DNA of 34,476 nt from Ornithinibacillus caprae (lineage in GTDB: Bacteria > Bacillota > Bacilli > Bacillales > Amphibacillaceae). Location of the stretch: NCBI RefSeq assembly GCF_009728145.1, contig NZ_WOCA01000025.1, positions 1-34,476 of the forward strand, written 5' to 3'. Made by a program: the position numbers and the translations under genes. Positions 11,488 through 17,910 of this stretch are shown here, piece by piece; within the stretch, counting starts at the first letter, position 1, and each line of letters opens with the position of its first letter. Below the pieces are notes generated by a model. It was not told the origin of the DNA, ran no database searches, and was given only the letters and a program-made list of their open reading frames with translations.

Positions 11488-13113
11488 ATGTCGTACGATG
11501 AACTTTCACATATGTTGTTAGTGGAAAAAGCACAGAAAGGAAGCCAGGAAGCACTAAGTAGTCTGATCAGTCAGCATCGAATGAAAATGCTTCAATGGGC
11601 CAATAAAATAGTGCAGAATTCTGCAAAAGCTGAGGACATCGTTCAAGACGCTCTTATTCAAACACTTCGTCATATTGACAGTCTGGATGACCCAGAAAAG
11701 TTTTTACCTTGGCTCAGGTCCATCGTCCGCAATCAGTCTTTGATGACTCTCCGGTCGTCAAGCGTTCGGGGTGAATCACTCTATGATGATAGATCATTAG
11801 ATGAAATTAGTAGTCACTTTCAACATAGCCATCTCGATGAGCCATTCACCTATACACTTGGTACGCAACTGCTTTCGGAGATGGAGGCGGGGATTGATAG
11901 GCTGGGGAAGCGAGAACAGGCTGTTATCCGATCGCATGTGCTGGAAGGCTTGAGTATTTCGGAGACAGCAGAACGAATTGGGATCAAGAGTGGAGCTGTC
12001 TACACCGCATTATCACGTGCAAGGAAAAAGTTGAATGATTTTCGCTTTGAAGATGAGTTAGATAAATATATTTCTTCAAGACGTCGATTTGGAAAACCAG
12101 ATAATGGAGGAAACGTTAATGTACAATATTATAGTTATGCGGGTGCCTATGATACGTTGTCATCGATGATAATGCTCACTGCTAGTTCGATAGGTTCTCA
12201 CCAGTTAACACTGACGGATGTTTTTGCCGCCACGGGACATGCATTTCGATTCCATGCTACAGATGACCTTGGGGTTAGTGGACCGTATGCCCACGATTGG
12301 ACTTCATCGGTATTATCCGGTATGGAAAATCTAGGATTGTCAGCAAATGTACACGGTGGATCTGGTTATCAGTTGAAACATCCTGATGAATTGACGGATT
12401 GTATGGAAGACGTATTTCAAGCACTTGAAGATGGAATTCCGGTTATTTCTTGGGGACTGAATAATGCAGAGTTTGGTCTAATCACTGGATATAACGATAA
12501 AACGAAGAGCTGGACCATTATGGACACTTCCACAAGCCGTAAAAAGCTGCCTTACTATAAATTGGGTAGAATGCAGCATCCTATGGATTGGTTTGTCGTA
12601 ATACCGAAGAAAAACAAATACAGTAAACAACGAACATACCCCATTGCTAGTATGTTGTTACAAGCGGTTAAAAACATCCACGGATTGGATCGCAGTGACA
12701 ATGATTTTTCGGTCAGTGGAACTGCTACGTACAGCAAGTGGATAGATTCATTCAATCGACAGCAATCAATTAATCCTCTTAGTGTAGCGTATAATTTAGC
12801 TGTAGTACGGGAGTCACGGTTCCATGCTTCAAGATTTTTACATACACTCCTAGACGATAGCAGGCAGGGGAGACCACTTCCAGAATCAGCACTATCGGCC
12901 ATAGTTCATTCAACTCAACTATTTGATTCTATTTTTGTAAAAATGAAGACTATCACCGAGCTATTTCCACTTCCATATGGCGCAGATCCTACTGCACCTG
13001 GACCAGCTGATCGTGCAGCACAATTATTAAACCGTGCCTCTGCAGAAGAAATCGAAGCAGCCAACGCATTAGAAGAAGCAGCTTGGATATTAAATCGAAA
13101 AAATCCTACGTAA
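11488..13113 (+). CDS. ECF sigma factor fused to a C39/BtrH-like papain-fold domain
   Basis: Residues 1-190 form an ECF sigma factor: region 2 with AEDIVQDALIQTLRHID and the FLPWLRSIVRNQ helix, and region 4 with LSISETAERIGIKSGAVYTALSRARKKL. A 350-residue extension follows. Residues about 205-375 resemble the C39-like/BtrH N-terminal papain fold, with AGAYDTLSSMIMLTASSIG where the nucleophile helix should be and GLITGYNDKTKSWTIMDT as the catalytic-His strand. Residues 390-541 resemble the helical part that follows in BtrH-like proteins. No Cys lies in the nucleophile helix (the only Cys is near residue 307), so it looks like an inactive, ligand- or peptide-binding version. The codons look more GC-rich than neighbours, suggesting transfer. 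No membrane segment or anti-sigma gene is present. Confidence 0.75.
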   Translation: MSYDELSHMLLVEKAQKGSQEALSSLISQHRMKMLQWANKIVQNSAKAEDIVQDALIQTLRHIDSLDDPEKFLPWLRSIVRNQSLMTLRSSSVRGESLYDDRSLDEISSHFQHSHLDEPFTYTLGTQLLSEMEAGIDRLGKREQAVIRSHVLEGLSISETAERIGIKSGAVYTALSRARKKLNDFRFEDELDKYISSRRRFGKPDNGGNVNVQYYSYAGAYDTLSSMIMLTASSIGSHQLTLTDVFAATGHAFRFHATDDLGVSGPYAHDWTSSVLSGMENLGLSANVHGGSGYQLKHPDELTDCMEDVFQALEDGIPVISWGLNNAEFGLITGYNDKTKSWTIMDTSTSRKKLPYYKLGRMQHPMDWFVVIPKKNKYSKQRTYPIASMLLQAVKNIHGLDRSDNDFSVSGTATYSKWIDSFNRQQSINPLSVAYNLAVVRESRFHASRFLHTLLDDSRQGRPLPESALSAIVHSTQLFDSIFVKMKTITELFPLPYGADPTAPGPADRAAQLLNRASAEEIEAANALEEAAWILNRKNPT

Positions 13114-13206: not shown

Positions 13207-14640
13207 ATGAAAGAAAACGAAACATTAGAAGTGAAGTCTAGGAATGTTCACCCAATTCGTAATAAGGTGGGCGGAGTATTTATGCATGTTAGCAATATGG
13301 AACAGTCGATCAATTGGTATCACAAGTTATTTGGTATGTCTGAACGATCTGCTTCAACGGAAAAGGTACATTCGATTACGATGGACGGTGGGTCCGATTT
13401 TGTATTGGATCAAAATGGGTTTGATAGTGGATTACCTACAGAAGACAGAGCGATCCTGATGTTTGATTCCCCAGATGTACGGGCAGCTTATAGGTTTGTA
13501 AAGGATTCTGGAATTGAGATTGTTGAGGATATTATGGATTTTCCGGGCATGTCCTTTTTTACCTTTAGAGATCCAGACGACAACCTACTCATGGTTTGTG
13601 GTGACCCAGGAAGTGATGACGATAAAGAAGAGGAACTTTCCATTACGGCTCAACAAGAGATTAGCTATGATGCTGGAGGCACGCGTTTGGTTGTAACTAA
13701 GGAAGCTACACACTCCAATATAACTCCTAATGGACTTGAACTAACAGGTAATGCACGTACGGAGACTACGTATGAAACACCTTTACGAATTGAAACAACT
13801 GTACGTATAGATAAAGGATCTCTTTATCTAACTTTCAGTCGTCATGGGTTAGTGGCTTTGAATTTTGGTAATTCGCCTGAGGTACAAGAAAAAGGTTATG
13901 GAAATGATTTGTATATTGTAAATCCTAAACTGAATAAACATTTTACATTCCATGATAAGGGCTCCATTCCTATTGGGCAGTGGGCTCATGTAGAATGGAC
14001 AATTAATGAACGGAGCATGGAGATCCATGTTGACGGAAAACTGTTTCATCGTCAGGATGGGTATTTCGGAAACTTAGTCGGTCAGGCGGGAATCGCGGGT
14101 GTAATGGGCAAGACAACTGTTAAATCTTTTCATGTAGAAACCTTGACTGATCAGGAGAAAACGGCTGACCTATCGGTTAAAAGAGGAGAAGTGGAAGAAG
14201 ATCGCTTGGTTGCTGATACTGCGTGCCATGCGGTAACAACCAGTGAAGGACTATGGCTTAGCTGTGATGAACGTTGGGGATACGCAAGTACGGATAATAC
14301 TTATTCCGTTCCGTTCTCACTGAAAACAGATATTCATAGTTTTACACGCTCGGTCGTGTTATACGGGGGACATTCTGCTCGAATTAAATGGAGTTCTGAA
14401 GGTAATCTTTGCTTCACCGATCCTATTACAAAAGAGGAAATATGGGTTCAGAATGCAGAATTGCCATACGACTCTTTTGCATCAATCGAGTGGAAAATGG
14501 ATGCTGATAAAACTTCCATTACAGTAGACGGTAACACCATTTTGGAACGAAAAGGCAATTATGCATCATGTCGATTTAAATTGGGGATTGGTGCAGATGT
14601 AGGCAGTGCAGTGACTGTCAAATCTGTTCATATTAATTAA
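13207..14640 (+). CDS. VOC domain fused to two lectin-like (LamG-type) beta-sandwich domains
   Basis: The 477-residue product starts with a VOC domain (about 20-140: GVFMHVSNMEQSINWYHKLFG and FFTFRDPDDNLLMVCGDPG). The position usually held by a second metal-binding Glu after DPDxN has Cys/Gly. Two concanavalin-A/LamG-like halves follow (about 150-310 and 325-477). Both have a hydrophobic WxxVEW/FASIEW strand and a short MEIHVDGKLFHRQ or TSITVDGNTILERK strand, suggesting duplication. There is no signal peptide, so it is probably cytoplasmic. The ATG follows AAGGAGG, 94 bases after the sigma-fusion gene with no clear terminator between, so the two may be co-transcribed. Confidence 0.7.
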   Translation: MKENETLEVKSRNVHPIRNKVGGVFMHVSNMEQSINWYHKLFGMSERSASTEKVHSITMDGGSDFVLDQNGFDSGLPTEDRAILMFDSPDVRAAYRFVKDSGIEIVEDIMDFPGMSFFTFRDPDDNLLMVCGDPGSDDDKEEELSITAQQEISYDAGGTRLVVTKEATHSNITPNGLELTGNARTETTYETPLRIETTVRIDKGSLYLTFSRHGLVALNFGNSPEVQEKGYGNDLYIVNPKLNKHFTFHDKGSIPIGQWAHVEWTINERSMEIHVDGKLFHRQDGYFGNLVGQAGIAGVMGKTTVKSFHVETLTDQEKTADLSVKRGEVEEDRLVADTACHAVTTSEGLWLSCDERWGYASTDNTYSVPFSLKTDIHSFTRSVVLYGGHSARIKWSSEGNLCFTDPITKEEIWVQNAELPYDSFASIEWKMDADKTSITVDGNTILERKGNYASCRFKLGIGADVGSAVTVKSVHIN

Positions 14641-15243: not shown

Positions 15244-16332
15244 ATGGATATTATGTTGGATCAGGCATTAAAGAAACTCCGAAATGAAAATATCTTGCCA
15301 GGTCAAGTAACCAAAATAGGTGAAGGTGCTTGGCATAGGGTTTACAAGCTAGAAGACTTACGGGATGAAGAATTTGTATTAAGAATAAAAAAGAAGGAAG
15401 CTTATGGTGAAGTACAAGATTTTGATTCAGATGAGTTGTGTTCTGAATATGAGTCTACTAGATCTTATTATCAGCATGCTAATGAGAGTTGTTCGAATGT
15501 ATGCCCATCCTTTTTCCAATATTTTATAGAGGAAGATTTAGTTTTCACCTTAGAAACCTTTATGGGAATTGGGCAAGATCTATCCTTACTTACGAACAAG
15601 GACGCAATTTCCTATGGAAAAAGACTAGGGTATTTCTTTAAGAAAATTCACAATAAATCTCCAGTCATAAAGGGTTTCGGAAATTTATATTGGAATGGAG
15701 AGACCTTACAAGGAAATAATCATCAATCTATTAATGAACTTTGGGAAGAGGATAATGATCATTATATAAAAATACTGTATGTATTAAACCATTCCAAATT
15801 GGATTTCAACAAAGAAAATGTAACTGAAAACGTAAATGATTTGATTAAGTGTAGAAGGAAACAGATTCAAGAAGTATCACTCGTAAATCAAGATATAACA
15901 CCAGAAAATATTATCTTAAATACTGGTAAGATATCCATCATTGATCCGTTTCCAAAGCTAGATTTTGGCTTGAAATACGCTGCCTATTTTGTTTTCTGTT
16001 ATAAATTTCTTTTACCATCCTTCTCAAACGCTCCTAGATATATTAATAATGCCTATAGTGAAAAGAGCGGTATTCTTAACGATATAGCTGAAGGATATAT
16101 CAAAGGCTATTTCCATGATATGAGTCTTGATGAATATACGAATCAAGTGAAGAGGTTAATGGATGAGTATACTTTATGGATGTTACAAGAAGCGTATGAG
16201 CATTATGAAGTATTACATGAGGAAAAGTTAACCAACAAAATAATACAGCAAATGGGACCTAGGGAAGTTATTGATGAAAGGTTAAATTTAATCATAAGAG
16301 AATTAGAAACTTTGTGCTCTAGACGGTATTAG
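15244..16332 (+). CDS. aminoglycoside phosphotransferase/choline kinase-fold (APH) family protein
   Basis: The 362-residue product has an N-lobe with GEGAWHRVYKLEDL (Gly-rich loop, about 27-40) and a FVLRIKKKEA strand with the ATP-binding Lys. The catalytic loop reads VNQDITPENIIL (about 217-228), where families normally have HxDxxxxN. The Asp and Asn are kept but the His is replaced by Asn. The metal-binding Asp follows in ISIIDP. It should phosphorylate a small hydroxylated molecule. Resistance function is not implied by sequence alone. The ATG follows AAGAGGGG. Confidence 0.8.
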   Translation: MDIMLDQALKKLRNENILPGQVTKIGEGAWHRVYKLEDLRDEEFVLRIKKKEAYGEVQDFDSDELCSEYESTRSYYQHANESCSNVCPSFFQYFIEEDLVFTLETFMGIGQDLSLLTNKDAISYGKRLGYFFKKIHNKSPVIKGFGNLYWNGETLQGNNHQSINELWEEDNDHYIKILYVLNHSKLDFNKENVTENVNDLIKCRRKQIQEVSLVNQDITPENIILNTGKISIIDPFPKLDFGLKYAAYFVFCYKFLLPSFSNAPRYINNAYSEKSGILNDIAEGYIKGYFHDMSLDEYTNQVKRLMDEYTLWMLQEAYEHYEVLHEEKLTNKIIQQMGPREVIDERLNLIIRELETLCSRRY

Positions 16333-16343
16333 ATATTTTGCTA

Positions 16344-16380
16344 ATAGATGCATTTGCTTTATCCAAGCAAATGCATCTAT
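16344..16380. terminator. long perfect hairpin after the kinase gene
   Basis: A 16-bp perfect inverted repeat (ATAGATGCATTTGCTT / AAGCAAATGCATCTAT) with a 5-base loop begins 12 bases after the APH gene stop. There is no T-run, so it is a poor intrinsic terminator, but it may protect the transcript end or block transcription into the hisS leader. Confidence 0.5.
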
Positions 16381-16394
16381 GAATAAGTTAATTA

Positions 16395-16423
16395 TTGAAA
16401 ACCTCATTGCAATATGGTACATT
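16395..16423 (+). promoter_or_regulatory. promoter of the hisS leader
   Basis: TTGAAA (16395-16400), 17 bases, TACATT (16418-16423, four of six consensus). It is correctly placed to start a transcript shortly before the leader peptide ribosome binding site at 16434-16444. Confidence 0.5.
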
Positions 16424-16447
16424 TAATAAAATTTAGAGGTGAGGAAA

Positions 16448-16498
16448 ATGCGTCAAATTAGGATTTCGTTCTCACAATTACATCATCATATCAAGTAG
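16448..16498 (+). CDS. histidine leader peptide of hisS
   Basis: The reading frame MRQIRISFSQLHHHIK starts at an ATG 3 bases after AGAGGTGAGGA (16434-16444) and stops with TAG. Three His codons in a row (16481-16489) lie just before the stop. The gene downstream codes for histidyl-tRNA synthetase and a strong terminator stands between. This is the arrangement of proteobacterial his leader peptides: ribosomes stall at the His codons when charged His-tRNA is short and shift the RNA fold. It is too short for ordinary gene finders. Confidence 0.8.
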   Translation: MRQIRISFSQLHHHIK

Positions 16499-16595
16499 CC
16501 TTGCTATTCGATTTTAAATATCGTAAATAGGAAGGCTATTTAACATTAAACCGTATTTGAATTAAGTGAAACACTTAACTCAGGTGCGGTTTTTT
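16496..16595 (+). promoter_or_regulatory. transcription attenuator controlling hisS
   Basis: A first hairpin pairs 16496-16508 (TAGCCTTGCTATT, including the leader stop codon) with 16526-16538 (one G-G mismatch). A terminator hairpin follows: 16549-16568 pairs with 16572-16591 over 20 positions with one mismatch and a 3-base loop, then TTTTTT. The loop of the first hairpin (TTTAAATA, 16513-16520) can pair with 16554-16561 in the terminator's 5' arm, a possible antiterminator. A ribosome stalled at the His codons would cover the first hairpin's 5' arm and favour read-through. There is no T-box sequence. The two hairpins are seen; the switch is inferred. Confidence 0.7.
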
Positions 16596-16626
16596 ATATA
16601 TTAAAATACATTGGAGGTAAAGCGAT

Positions 16627-17910
16627 ATGAAGAAAATGTATTATCAGAATGTAAAGGGTACACAAGATTATTTACCGAACGCAGAAGTAGTACGAAGAGA
16701 GATAACGAGAACATTGGAGGATGTTTTTATTCAATACGGATGTCGACCTCTGGAAACACCAATATTGAATTACACGGAATTGCTTGCTTCAAAATATGGA
16801 GGAGGAGCAGAAATACTAGAAGAAATGTACACATTGACTGACAGAGGAGAAAGAGATTTATCTTTACGATACGACCTCACGATACCGTTTGCAAAAGTTG
16901 TTGCAATGAATCCGACACTTCGGATGCCATTTAGGAGATATGAAATCGGAAAAGTATTTAGAGATGGACCAATTAAAACGGGGAGGTTTCGTGAATTTAC
17001 ACAGTGCGATGTTGATATTGTGGGCGTAGAATCTCAAATAGCAGAAGCTGAATTAATGATCATGGCACTGGATGCATGTAATAAGCTGGATTTACAGGTA
17101 ACCATTCAATATAACAATCGAAAATTACTAACTGGAATGCTAGAAGTGTTTGGTGCCGAAGATGAAAAAATCAATAAAACCGTGTTGATACTTGATAAAC
17201 TAGAAAAAGTTGGATTAGAAGCGGTTATTGCTGAGCTTCATGAACAAGGATTATCCAATACAACGATTCACTCGATCAGACAGTTTTTAACGGATAAAAA
17301 TAATACTAGCTTTAACTATTTTGAACCCTACGCCAAACAAAATAAACAGGTTAGTCAAGGACTAGAGGAATGGAGAGAACTAGAATCCTATCTGGAATTT
17401 CTTGATGTTAAGAAACACTGCGTATTTAATCCGTTTTTAGCAAGAGGATTAGAGATATACACGGGTACGGTTTATGAAATATTCCTAACTGATCAATCTA
17501 TTAAGTCCAGTATTGGGAGTGGTGGTAGATATGACAATGCAATTGGTGGACTGATAGGAACAGATGAAAACTTTTCAACAGTAGGAATATCATTTGGTTT
17601 GGATGTGATTTATACAGCATTGAACGCATCAGGTACTAATTTAAAAGAGAATTCTAATGTGGATTATTATATTATTCCAATCGGCATGCCAAAAGAAGCC
17701 TTATTGGTAGCAACTGATCTAAGAAATAAATGCTATAAGGTAGAGGTAGAAATGAATAATAAAAGAATAGGTAAAGCTCTTGAGAAAGCAAACAAAGAAA
17801 AGATTCGCAACGTTATTATGATAGGTGAAAATGAAGTTTCTAATAACCAGATTAAAATTAAGGATATGGTTTCAGGTGGTGAAAGAATGAAATCATTTCT
17901 GTTTAGTTAA
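16627..17910 (+). CDS. hisS: histidyl-tRNA synthetase
   Basis: The 427-residue class II synthetase keeps the KGTQDYLP start, motif 2 (MPFRRYEIGKVFRDGPIKTGRFREFTQCD, read as consecutive parts near residues 98-126), the His-A motif LARGLEIYTGTVYE, motif 3-like GSGGRYDNAIGGL, and a C-terminal anticodon-binding domain ending MKSFLFS. Having both the catalytic motifs and the anticodon domain, it is an active HisRS rather than HisZ. Bacillus genomes often hold two hisS genes, one behind a T-box beside aspS; here the gene stands alone behind a His leader peptide, so it may be the second copy. The ATG follows TTGGAGGTAA. Confidence 0.92.
   Translation: MKKMYYQNVKGTQDYLPNAEVVRREITRTLEDVFIQYGCRPLETPILNYTELLASKYGGGAEILEEMYTLTDRGERDLSLRYDLTIPFAKVVAMNPTLRMPFRRYEIGKVFRDGPIKTGRFREFTQCDVDIVGVESQIAEAELMIMALDACNKLDLQVTIQYNNRKLLTGMLEVFGAEDEKINKTVLILDKLEKVGLEAVIAELHEQGLSNTTIHSIRQFLTDKNNTSFNYFEPYAKQNKQVSQGLEEWRELESYLEFLDVKKHCVFNPFLARGLEIYTGTVYEIFLTDQSIKSSIGSGGRYDNAIGGLIGTDENFSTVGISFGLDVIYTALNASGTNLKENSNVDYYIIPIGMPKEALLVATDLRNKCYKVEVEMNNKRIGKALEKANKEKIRNVIMIGENEVSNNQIKIKDMVSGGERMKSFLFS

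Follow-up and report, generated by a model that had tools for sequence, protein, structure and literature searches.

A probable histidine leader-peptide attenuator ahead of a second histidyl-tRNA synthetase gene, hisS*, in Ornithinibacillus caprae and its relatives

The second histidyl-tRNA synthetase (HisRS) gene of Ornithinibacillus caprae, hisS*, is very probably controlled by a real, conserved and functional histidine leader-peptide attenuator, and this leader follows the phylogeny of hisS*, its RNA taking at least three forms that share no recognisable similarity. The locus lies in the window, by which we mean the whole 34,476-nucleotide stretch of contig NZ_WOCA01000025.1 that was analysed. 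We consider it likely that the leader works as a ribosome-mediated transcription attenuator, with charged tRNA-His as its signal and hisS*, a back-up synthetase gene, as its target; the narrower statement, that the window leader senses histidine, is very likely. We favour this reading because the leader is found in 79 of 80 loci with its His codons and spacing kept and both helices covarying, because the sister leaders carry HHH and those of type II switch in the right direction (14 of 18 rows), and because the architecture follows the hisS* tree while the canonical hisS has a T-box instead; a prediction made in 2010 agrees. Counting against it are the lack of an antiterminator in all 78 leaders of the window's own type (type I), the part-Tyr leaders of four type III loci, and one leaderless locus (L122).

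The leader and its locus

The features of the locus are collected in Table 1. A short HHH frame preceded by an SD sequence occurs only once in the window, both strands counted, and dinucleotide shuffling of the 294-nt intergenic region yielded one in 2 of 20,000 trials, a frequency that rules out a chance origin of the frame. Folding of a 201-nt region gave -56.5 kcal/mol (z -6.5, none of 200 shuffles equally low) with both hairpins present; in hairpin 1 (16496-16538) UAGCCUU-G-CUAU pairs with AUAG-G-AAGGCUA. The initial annotation, made from the sequence alone, had described a 16-codon frame with an SD and three consecutive His codons, followed by two hairpins of which the second was a 20-pair terminator with six T, and all of these elements were recovered. 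Because a simple consensus scan of 16300-16640 listed no terminator, our terminator call is based on the fold, the U run and the conservation. A transcript from the candidate promoter would begin just 5' of the leader SD, although promoter-like sites were not above chance (2 found against 2.2 expected in shuffles).

Table 1. Features of the hisS* locus, in coordinates of the window.
Feature	Position	Strand	Sequence or evidence
Candidate promoter	16395..16423	+	TTGAAA-17-TACATT, TG ahead of -10; weak
Leader SD	16435..16444	+	AGAGGTGAGG; GAGGTG in 63/78 leaders, other G-rich SD in remaining 15
Leader peptide frame	16448..16498	+	MRQIRISFSQLHHHIK; 16 codons, ATG 16448, stop TAG 16496-16498
Control His codons	16481..16489	+	CAT CAT CAT, inside leader frame
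Hairpin 1 arm 1	16496..16507	+	UAGCCUUGCUAU; its first bases are the leader stop codon
Hairpin 1 apical stem-loop	16510..16523	+	GAUUUUAAAUAUCG; CGAUUU/AAAUCG in most relatives
Hairpin 1 arm 2	16527..16538	+	AUAGGAAGGCUA; G-G mismatch with arm 1
9-nt spacer	16539..16547	+	UUUAACAUU; conserved, UUUAUCAUU in many relatives
Intrinsic terminator 5' arm	16548..16568	+	Fold, conservation
Intrinsic terminator 3' arm	16572..16592	+	Fold, conservation; 20 pairs with 5' arm
Terminator U run	16590..16595	+	Six U (TTTTTT); sequence
hisS*, second histidine--tRNA ligase	16627..17910	+	427 aa; NF009085/PRK12420, 610.3 bits (cut-off 540)

Elsewhere in the window, an inverted repeat, tagatgcatttgctt..aagcaaatgcatcta, lies at 16340-16385, 3' of the upstream gene; it gave sub-threshold Rfam miRNA matches and is probably that gene's own 3' hairpin. 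Among the neighbouring genes, an ECF sigma factor (11488-13113) ends in an extra C-terminal region of about 350 aa in which Pfam gave no match at E 0.001, and a single protein encoded at 13207-14640 joins a glyoxalase-type domain to a region with a weak Laminin_G_3 match.

A second HisRS gene

The hisS* product also matches the HisRS core and anticodon domains. The gene had been annotated simply as hisS; it does encode a HisRS, but it is the paralogue, and the canonical hisS, which has a T-box, lies on another contig of the same genome (TIGR00442, 523 bits). The canonical protein is 24-27% identical to that of hisS* over matched pieces, and a third hisS-family protein in the genome, hisZ-like, is 23% identical to it over matched pieces. 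When the hisS* protein was compared with solved chains by phmmer, the top match was 6nhi (215 bits), followed by cytoplasmic HisRS chains (4phc, 178 bits), with 1qe0 (114 bits) and 1kmm (98 bits), which we take to be bacterial HisRS chains, ranking below these. Because cytoplasmic chains outscore the presumed bacterial ones, we regard hisS* as an old, divergent HisRS and not a recent copy of hisS.

The distribution of hisS* is patchy. It was found in none of the 10 other genomes of the genus (E 1e-60), and in 47 of 299 genomes of the order and 33 of 398 of the class (E 1e-140, the window's genome counted). The canonical hisS was also present in all 18 genomes chosen for comparison, 15 of which, the window's own included, had been picked for having hisS*. 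This synthetase is probably a back-up histidyl-tRNA synthetase. Four plasmid records carry hisS*, and the leader is present in both of those examined (L090, Planococcus; L091, Lysinibacillus); with hisS* and its leader on plasmids, the regulated synthetase is therefore mobile. Two of the four records (H2, H3) are named Stenotrophomonas rhizophila, an odd host for hisS*. Two hisS* copies per genome were seen in Oceanobacillus sp. J11TS1 (L008 and L012) and Sutcliffiella horikoshii (L060 and L062).

Conservation and covariation of the leader

Among the named relatives of hisS* (the best 80 of the 317 found), 79 have the leader. It lies within 450 nt of hisS* and starts with ATG in 77 of the 80; the leader of L023 sits 470 nt upstream, and that of L082 further upstream with a GTG start. 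The leader was lost at L012, one of the two nearby hisS* copies of Oceanobacillus sp. J11TS1. At five loci (L023, L082, L029, L032 and L072) there are some 110-520 nt of extra DNA between terminator and hisS* relative to the other loci.

The window and 77 relatives make up a set of 78 leaders, with an effective number of sequences of about 31 at 80% identity. The last seven leader codons include at least three His codons in 72 of the 78 and two in the other six, and CAT accounts for 225 of the 235 His codons. In 66 leaders the distance between the last His codon and the start of arm 1 is exactly 6 nt, the stop codon falls at the start of arm 1 in 74, the G-G mismatch of hairpin 1 is kept in 75, and the spacer is constant to within 1 nt in all 78. 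In alignment A1, 10 of 20 pairs have changed on both sides while 98.2% of cells remain paired, and the 93 compensatory cells, spread over both helices, compare with a mean of 28 in shuffled alignments (0 of 500 as high). Three mid-stem pairs of hairpin 1 are invariant, while its basal pairs and the terminator pairs covary, the covarying hairpin 1 pairs being 16498:16536 and 16499:16535. Scans for extra helices, by mutual information and by native against cross complementarity, were dominated by hairpin 1 with its apical stem and by the terminator, and the remaining high scores were scattered single windows. The conserved histidine leader-peptide attenuator that the initial annotation had placed, without a T-box, before a Bacillaceae HisRS gene is thus borne out by the relatives, in its His codons and in its hairpins alike.

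The more distant leader of L113 (..THVHQHTE) keeps three His codons, spaced H-V-H-Q-H and no longer adjacent, and its hairpin 1 matches that of the window type in the lower and middle stem; at L112, L113, L143 and L145 this part of hairpin 1 is the same and the upper stem of the terminator is different. At L087 (1468-2200; genome G381, of the window's family) hisS* is broken by stops, as judged by eye, and has no match in the class search; the leader, MRPFRILFSKLHHHIK, is still readable and the base of its hairpin is damaged, which suggests that the leader decays after hisS* is lost.

Within the window's own genome the sole match to the leader model R1 is the window, and the hisZ-like gene has no His leader in the roughly 150 nt upstream (by eye). 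Under strict filters R1 gave 5 matches in the 398 class genomes, against 33 of 398 for the hisS* search.

Three RNA architectures along the hisS* tree

The class and order searches yielded 59 loci, including the window's copy and some repeats of named loci. A His leader was recognised by motif in 53 of these, one more (L120) has a GTG start, and four have a partial Tyr leader; L122 is a hisS* locus without a leader within 620 nt. Two sister types were distinguished from the window's. Type II leaders (18 loci, L092-L109) encode peptides ending in ..QHHHT/G or ..QLHHHH/D, and their RNA, in the 12 of 18 loci inspected, runs AGCGUUUG..CAAGCGC, then GUGCCUGCGG, then a terminator with GCGGGC. Type III leaders (8 loci, L114-L121) encode ..QLHHHKQR and relatives. 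L147 is intermediate, its hairpin beginning with UAACCUUG as in some type I leaders. In types II and III and in L147 the leader stop codon lies at or within arm 1. Leader model R1 matched none of the four type II and III leaders compared (L092, L109, L117, L121).

Four type III loci (L114-L116 and L118, about 170-290 nt upstream of hisS*) read L-H-Y-Y-H-K-Q-R or F-Y-Y-H-K-Q-R, with TAT at positions where relatives have CAT and with the RNA arms kept. Such Tyr codons would point either to decaying sensing or to another amino acid being sensed.

In a tree of 51 hisS* proteins, type II (8 rows) and type III (6 rows) each form one branch with support 100/100, and the leader-type labels need 7 changes, one above the minimum; the root was placed at the midpoint, the type I label was also given to the leaderless L012, and L123, L143 and L147 are long branches. 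Because leader architecture tracks the hisS* tree, the leader has accompanied the gene even as its RNA was remodelled.

Proposed mechanism and ribosome-dependent folding

When charged tRNA-His is plentiful, the ribosome would reach the stop codon within arm 1 of hairpin 1 and keep this hairpin open, and with hairpin 1 open the terminator would end transcription. When charged tRNA-His is scarce, the ribosome would stall on CAT CAT CAT, hairpin 1 would be able to form, and RNA polymerase would read through into hisS*. The last His codon stands two codons ahead of arm 1 in most relatives. The elements expected of an attenuator are in place: an SD, clustered and conserved His codons in a leader whose translation is predicted, and an intrinsic terminator ahead of the structural gene.

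Our measure of switching takes RNA that ends with the terminator 5' arm, sets the ribosome on either the stop or the first His codon, and scores the sequestration of the arm; the folding models are equilibrium models that leave out pausing, and they assume that the ribosome covers the 13 nt that follow its A site (11-15 tried). In type II the arm was sequestered at 0.76 with the ribosome stalled against 0.28 at the stop, with at most 5% of shuffles as good in 14 of 18 rows. Arm-specific folding, with the arms set by eye at 11 of the 18 loci, gave an antiterminator of at least 0.77 at His 1 and at most 0.37 at the stop in 8 of the 11, the exceptions being L103 and L105, which were high at the stop also, and L106, which was 0 throughout. 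By the generic measure L103 (p 0.10), L105 and L106 switch, and L107-L109 do not. The folding models thus point to a textbook switch in type II, in which starvation would give readthrough.

In type III the generic measure gave 0.51 stalled against 0.31 at the stop, with 3 of 8 rows passing. In arm-specific folding 6 of 8 reached 0.58 or more at one of the three control codons and stayed at 0.27 or less at the stop; L117-L119 gave lower values when the first codon occupied the A site, L115 was 0 throughout and L121 had no switch. The intermediate L147 scored 0.71 against 0.43 (p 0.10) by the generic measure and 0.83 against 0.02 by arm-specific folding.

For type I, none of the 78 rows passed the shuffle control as an antiterminator (0.16 stalled against 0.28 at the stop). 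With a mean change of -0.12, a ribosome at the stop would if anything increase sequestration of the terminator arm, and in the window alone sequestration was 0.08 stalled and 0.46 at the stop (change -0.37). What does respond to ribosome position is hairpin 1, whose mean pairing fell from 0.87 at His 1 through 0.76 (His 2) and 0.49 (His 3) to 0.00 at the stop; the complete terminator formed at 0.89-0.90 whatever the position. The type I switch would therefore be either a kinetic or pseudoknotted pairing that the models miss, or a direct action of the hairpin on RNA polymerase. For a single sensing problem one gene family thus has three or more RNA architectures. Because a textbook switch is seen in one of them and no visible switch in another, the role of the antiterminator is directly testable. 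T-boxes are the usual control of Firmicutes synthetase genes; if the hisS* leader works as we infer, leader-peptide attenuation operates in a group where they usually control synthetases.

Alternative readings of the switch

A classical attenuator (1:2/3:4 versus 2:3/4:5) in the window itself is possible but doubtful. A stalled ribosome would then allow the spacer and the terminator 5' arm to form a small antiterminator, and a ribosome at the stop would allow the 2:3 hairpin (AAAUAG-GAAGG-CUAUUU). The sister leaders appear to use this design. In masked folding of the window only, the spacer:arm hairpin has the minimum energy when His codon 2 or 3 occupies the A site. With the ribosome at the stop it is the 2:3 hairpin that forms, and this hairpin is better than with shuffled spacers (2.07 versus 1.10 bp). 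Spacer:arm pairing in the stalled state is higher by more than 1 bp in 31 of 78 rows and lower in 8, and in Oceanobacillus the pairing of UUAUUCA with UGAAUUAA seems to covary with UUUAUCA/UGAUUAA. However, when no ribosome is present, or when it holds His codon 1 in its A site, the terminator arm of the window pairs with the 5' end of the leader instead, and native spacer:arm energies scarcely beat those of cross pairs (-1.86 versus -1.49). Over the 78 leaders the spacer:arm hairpin has 4.04 bp against 4.08 with shuffled spacers (energy 0 to -3.4 kcal/mol), and on these counts a spacer:terminator antiterminator is not supported as a general feature of type I.

Hairpin 1 might instead act directly on RNA polymerase, by pausing or by cis antitermination as known from the put and EAR RNAs, and be disabled when the terminating ribosome opens its base; we hold this to be rather unlikely. 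The pattern of conservation is in its favour: no selection for pairing between hairpin 1 and the terminator 5' arm is seen, the three mid-stem pairs of hairpin 1 are invariant and its G-G nearly so while the basal and terminator pairs covary, its lower and middle stem persists where the upper stem of the terminator differs, and the spacer hardly varies in length. The invariance could, however, partly reflect short divergence times, given the small effective number of sequences, and native pairing of the loop with the terminator 3' arm is slightly better than that of cross pairs (-3.89 versus -3.33), which leaves room for a pseudoknot. The fuller proposal, that the window type is a leader-peptide attenuator without an antiterminator, in which the ribosome opens or spares a conserved hairpin acting on the polymerase itself and which replaced or preceded the classical switch of the sister leaders, is unlikely.

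The initial annotation had seen a workable switch in the pairing of the hairpin 1 loop with the terminator arm, and this part of it found no support. In the window the pairing amounts to -6.0 kcal/mol, with 10.5% of shuffled loops as good; over 78 leaders native pairs are weaker than pairs from distant relatives (-3.31 versus -3.83); and the pairing would form with the ribosome at the stop and not at the His codons, the wrong sense for starvation.

A reversed logic, in which a ribosome at the stop frees a hairpin 1 strand to pair with the terminator arm so that full translation leads to reading of hisS*, is very improbable. It draws on the greater sequestration of the window's arm at the stop and on six Lysinibacillus-type rows whose native effect exceeds the cross control (-0.34 versus -0.21). 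Yet the native reversed effect is weaker by more than 0.1 in 34 of 78 rows and stronger in 10, and because joining the hairpins of distant relatives to the native arm enlarges the effect (-0.17 versus -0.11 with the native hairpins), such pairing is not generally selected. Such a logic would also make no sense for a synthetase, and it is opposite to that of the sister leaders.

Control of hisS* by a T-box or another tRNA-binding leader has next to no probability, even though Bacillus HisRS genes are known to carry T-boxes (PMC2965389) and the canonical hisS of the window's genome (L004) has one by Rfam (129.6 bits), which serves as a positive control. Neither the T-box (RF00230) nor the His_leader model (RF00514) matched the window at gathering scores or 16330-16640 up to E = 5, no T-box was present in 20 scanned of the 80 homologous loci, and no simple T-box motif occurred within 620 nt in the 59 class and order loci, the window's copy included. 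These covariance-model and motif negatives, which cover the T-box match that the initial annotation had singled out for checking, contradict a T-box identity of the window leader.

Comparison with known systems

The attenuator reading that we prefer has several counterparts. The proteobacterial his leader (RF00514) likewise combines a run of His codons with a terminator; its model has no match in the window and its target gene is a different one. E. coli pheST is a synthetase gene under ribosome-mediated attenuation, and so shares the kind of target while differing in amino acid and phylum. The cysS leader motif uORFC-8-2 of Rhodobacterales is also a case of attenuation of a synthetase gene by the ribosome, for another amino acid and in another phylum (PMC8632094). 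Among Firmicutes, the Leu attenuator of S. aureus ilv is a leader-peptide attenuator with experimental support, but it uses Leu codons and precedes a biosynthetic operon (PMC5794164).

Closer to hisS* are the His attenuators described before his operons of the B. cereus group, Peptostreptococcaceae and Erysipelotrichales (Ashniev 2022; PMC9413887). These Firmicutes systems share the His-rich leader and the attenuator and terminator hairpins; in contrast to the present leader, they precede his biosynthesis operons and not hisS, and the word hisS does not occur in the main text of that survey of Firmicutes histidine regulation. PMC4833913 also cites, for the B. cereus group and C. difficile, a prediction made upstream of hisZ. 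In the open-licence literature (supplements excluded) we found no experimental study of the hisS* leader and no description of the three architectures.

The nearest precedent bears on the view of the initial annotation that the design was not known in this group. Naville and Gautheret (2010; PMC2965389) predicted that in bacilli a histidine leader peptide precedes hisS* and hisZ, hisS retaining its T-box, and thus anticipated the design for the Bacillus hisS paralogue. By its description, that leader agrees with ours in having a hisS paralogue as target, a canonical hisS with a T-box, a run of His codons and a premature terminator. The same paper describes hisS* as recently duplicated; in the window's genome its protein shares 23-27% identity over matched pieces with the other hisS-family proteins and scores higher with cytoplasmic HisRS chains than with several presumed bacterial ones. 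The 2010 prediction, which is without a matching Rfam model, is now backed by many more loci; the design as such had been predicted there, and what we add is the three architectures that track the hisS* phylogeny.
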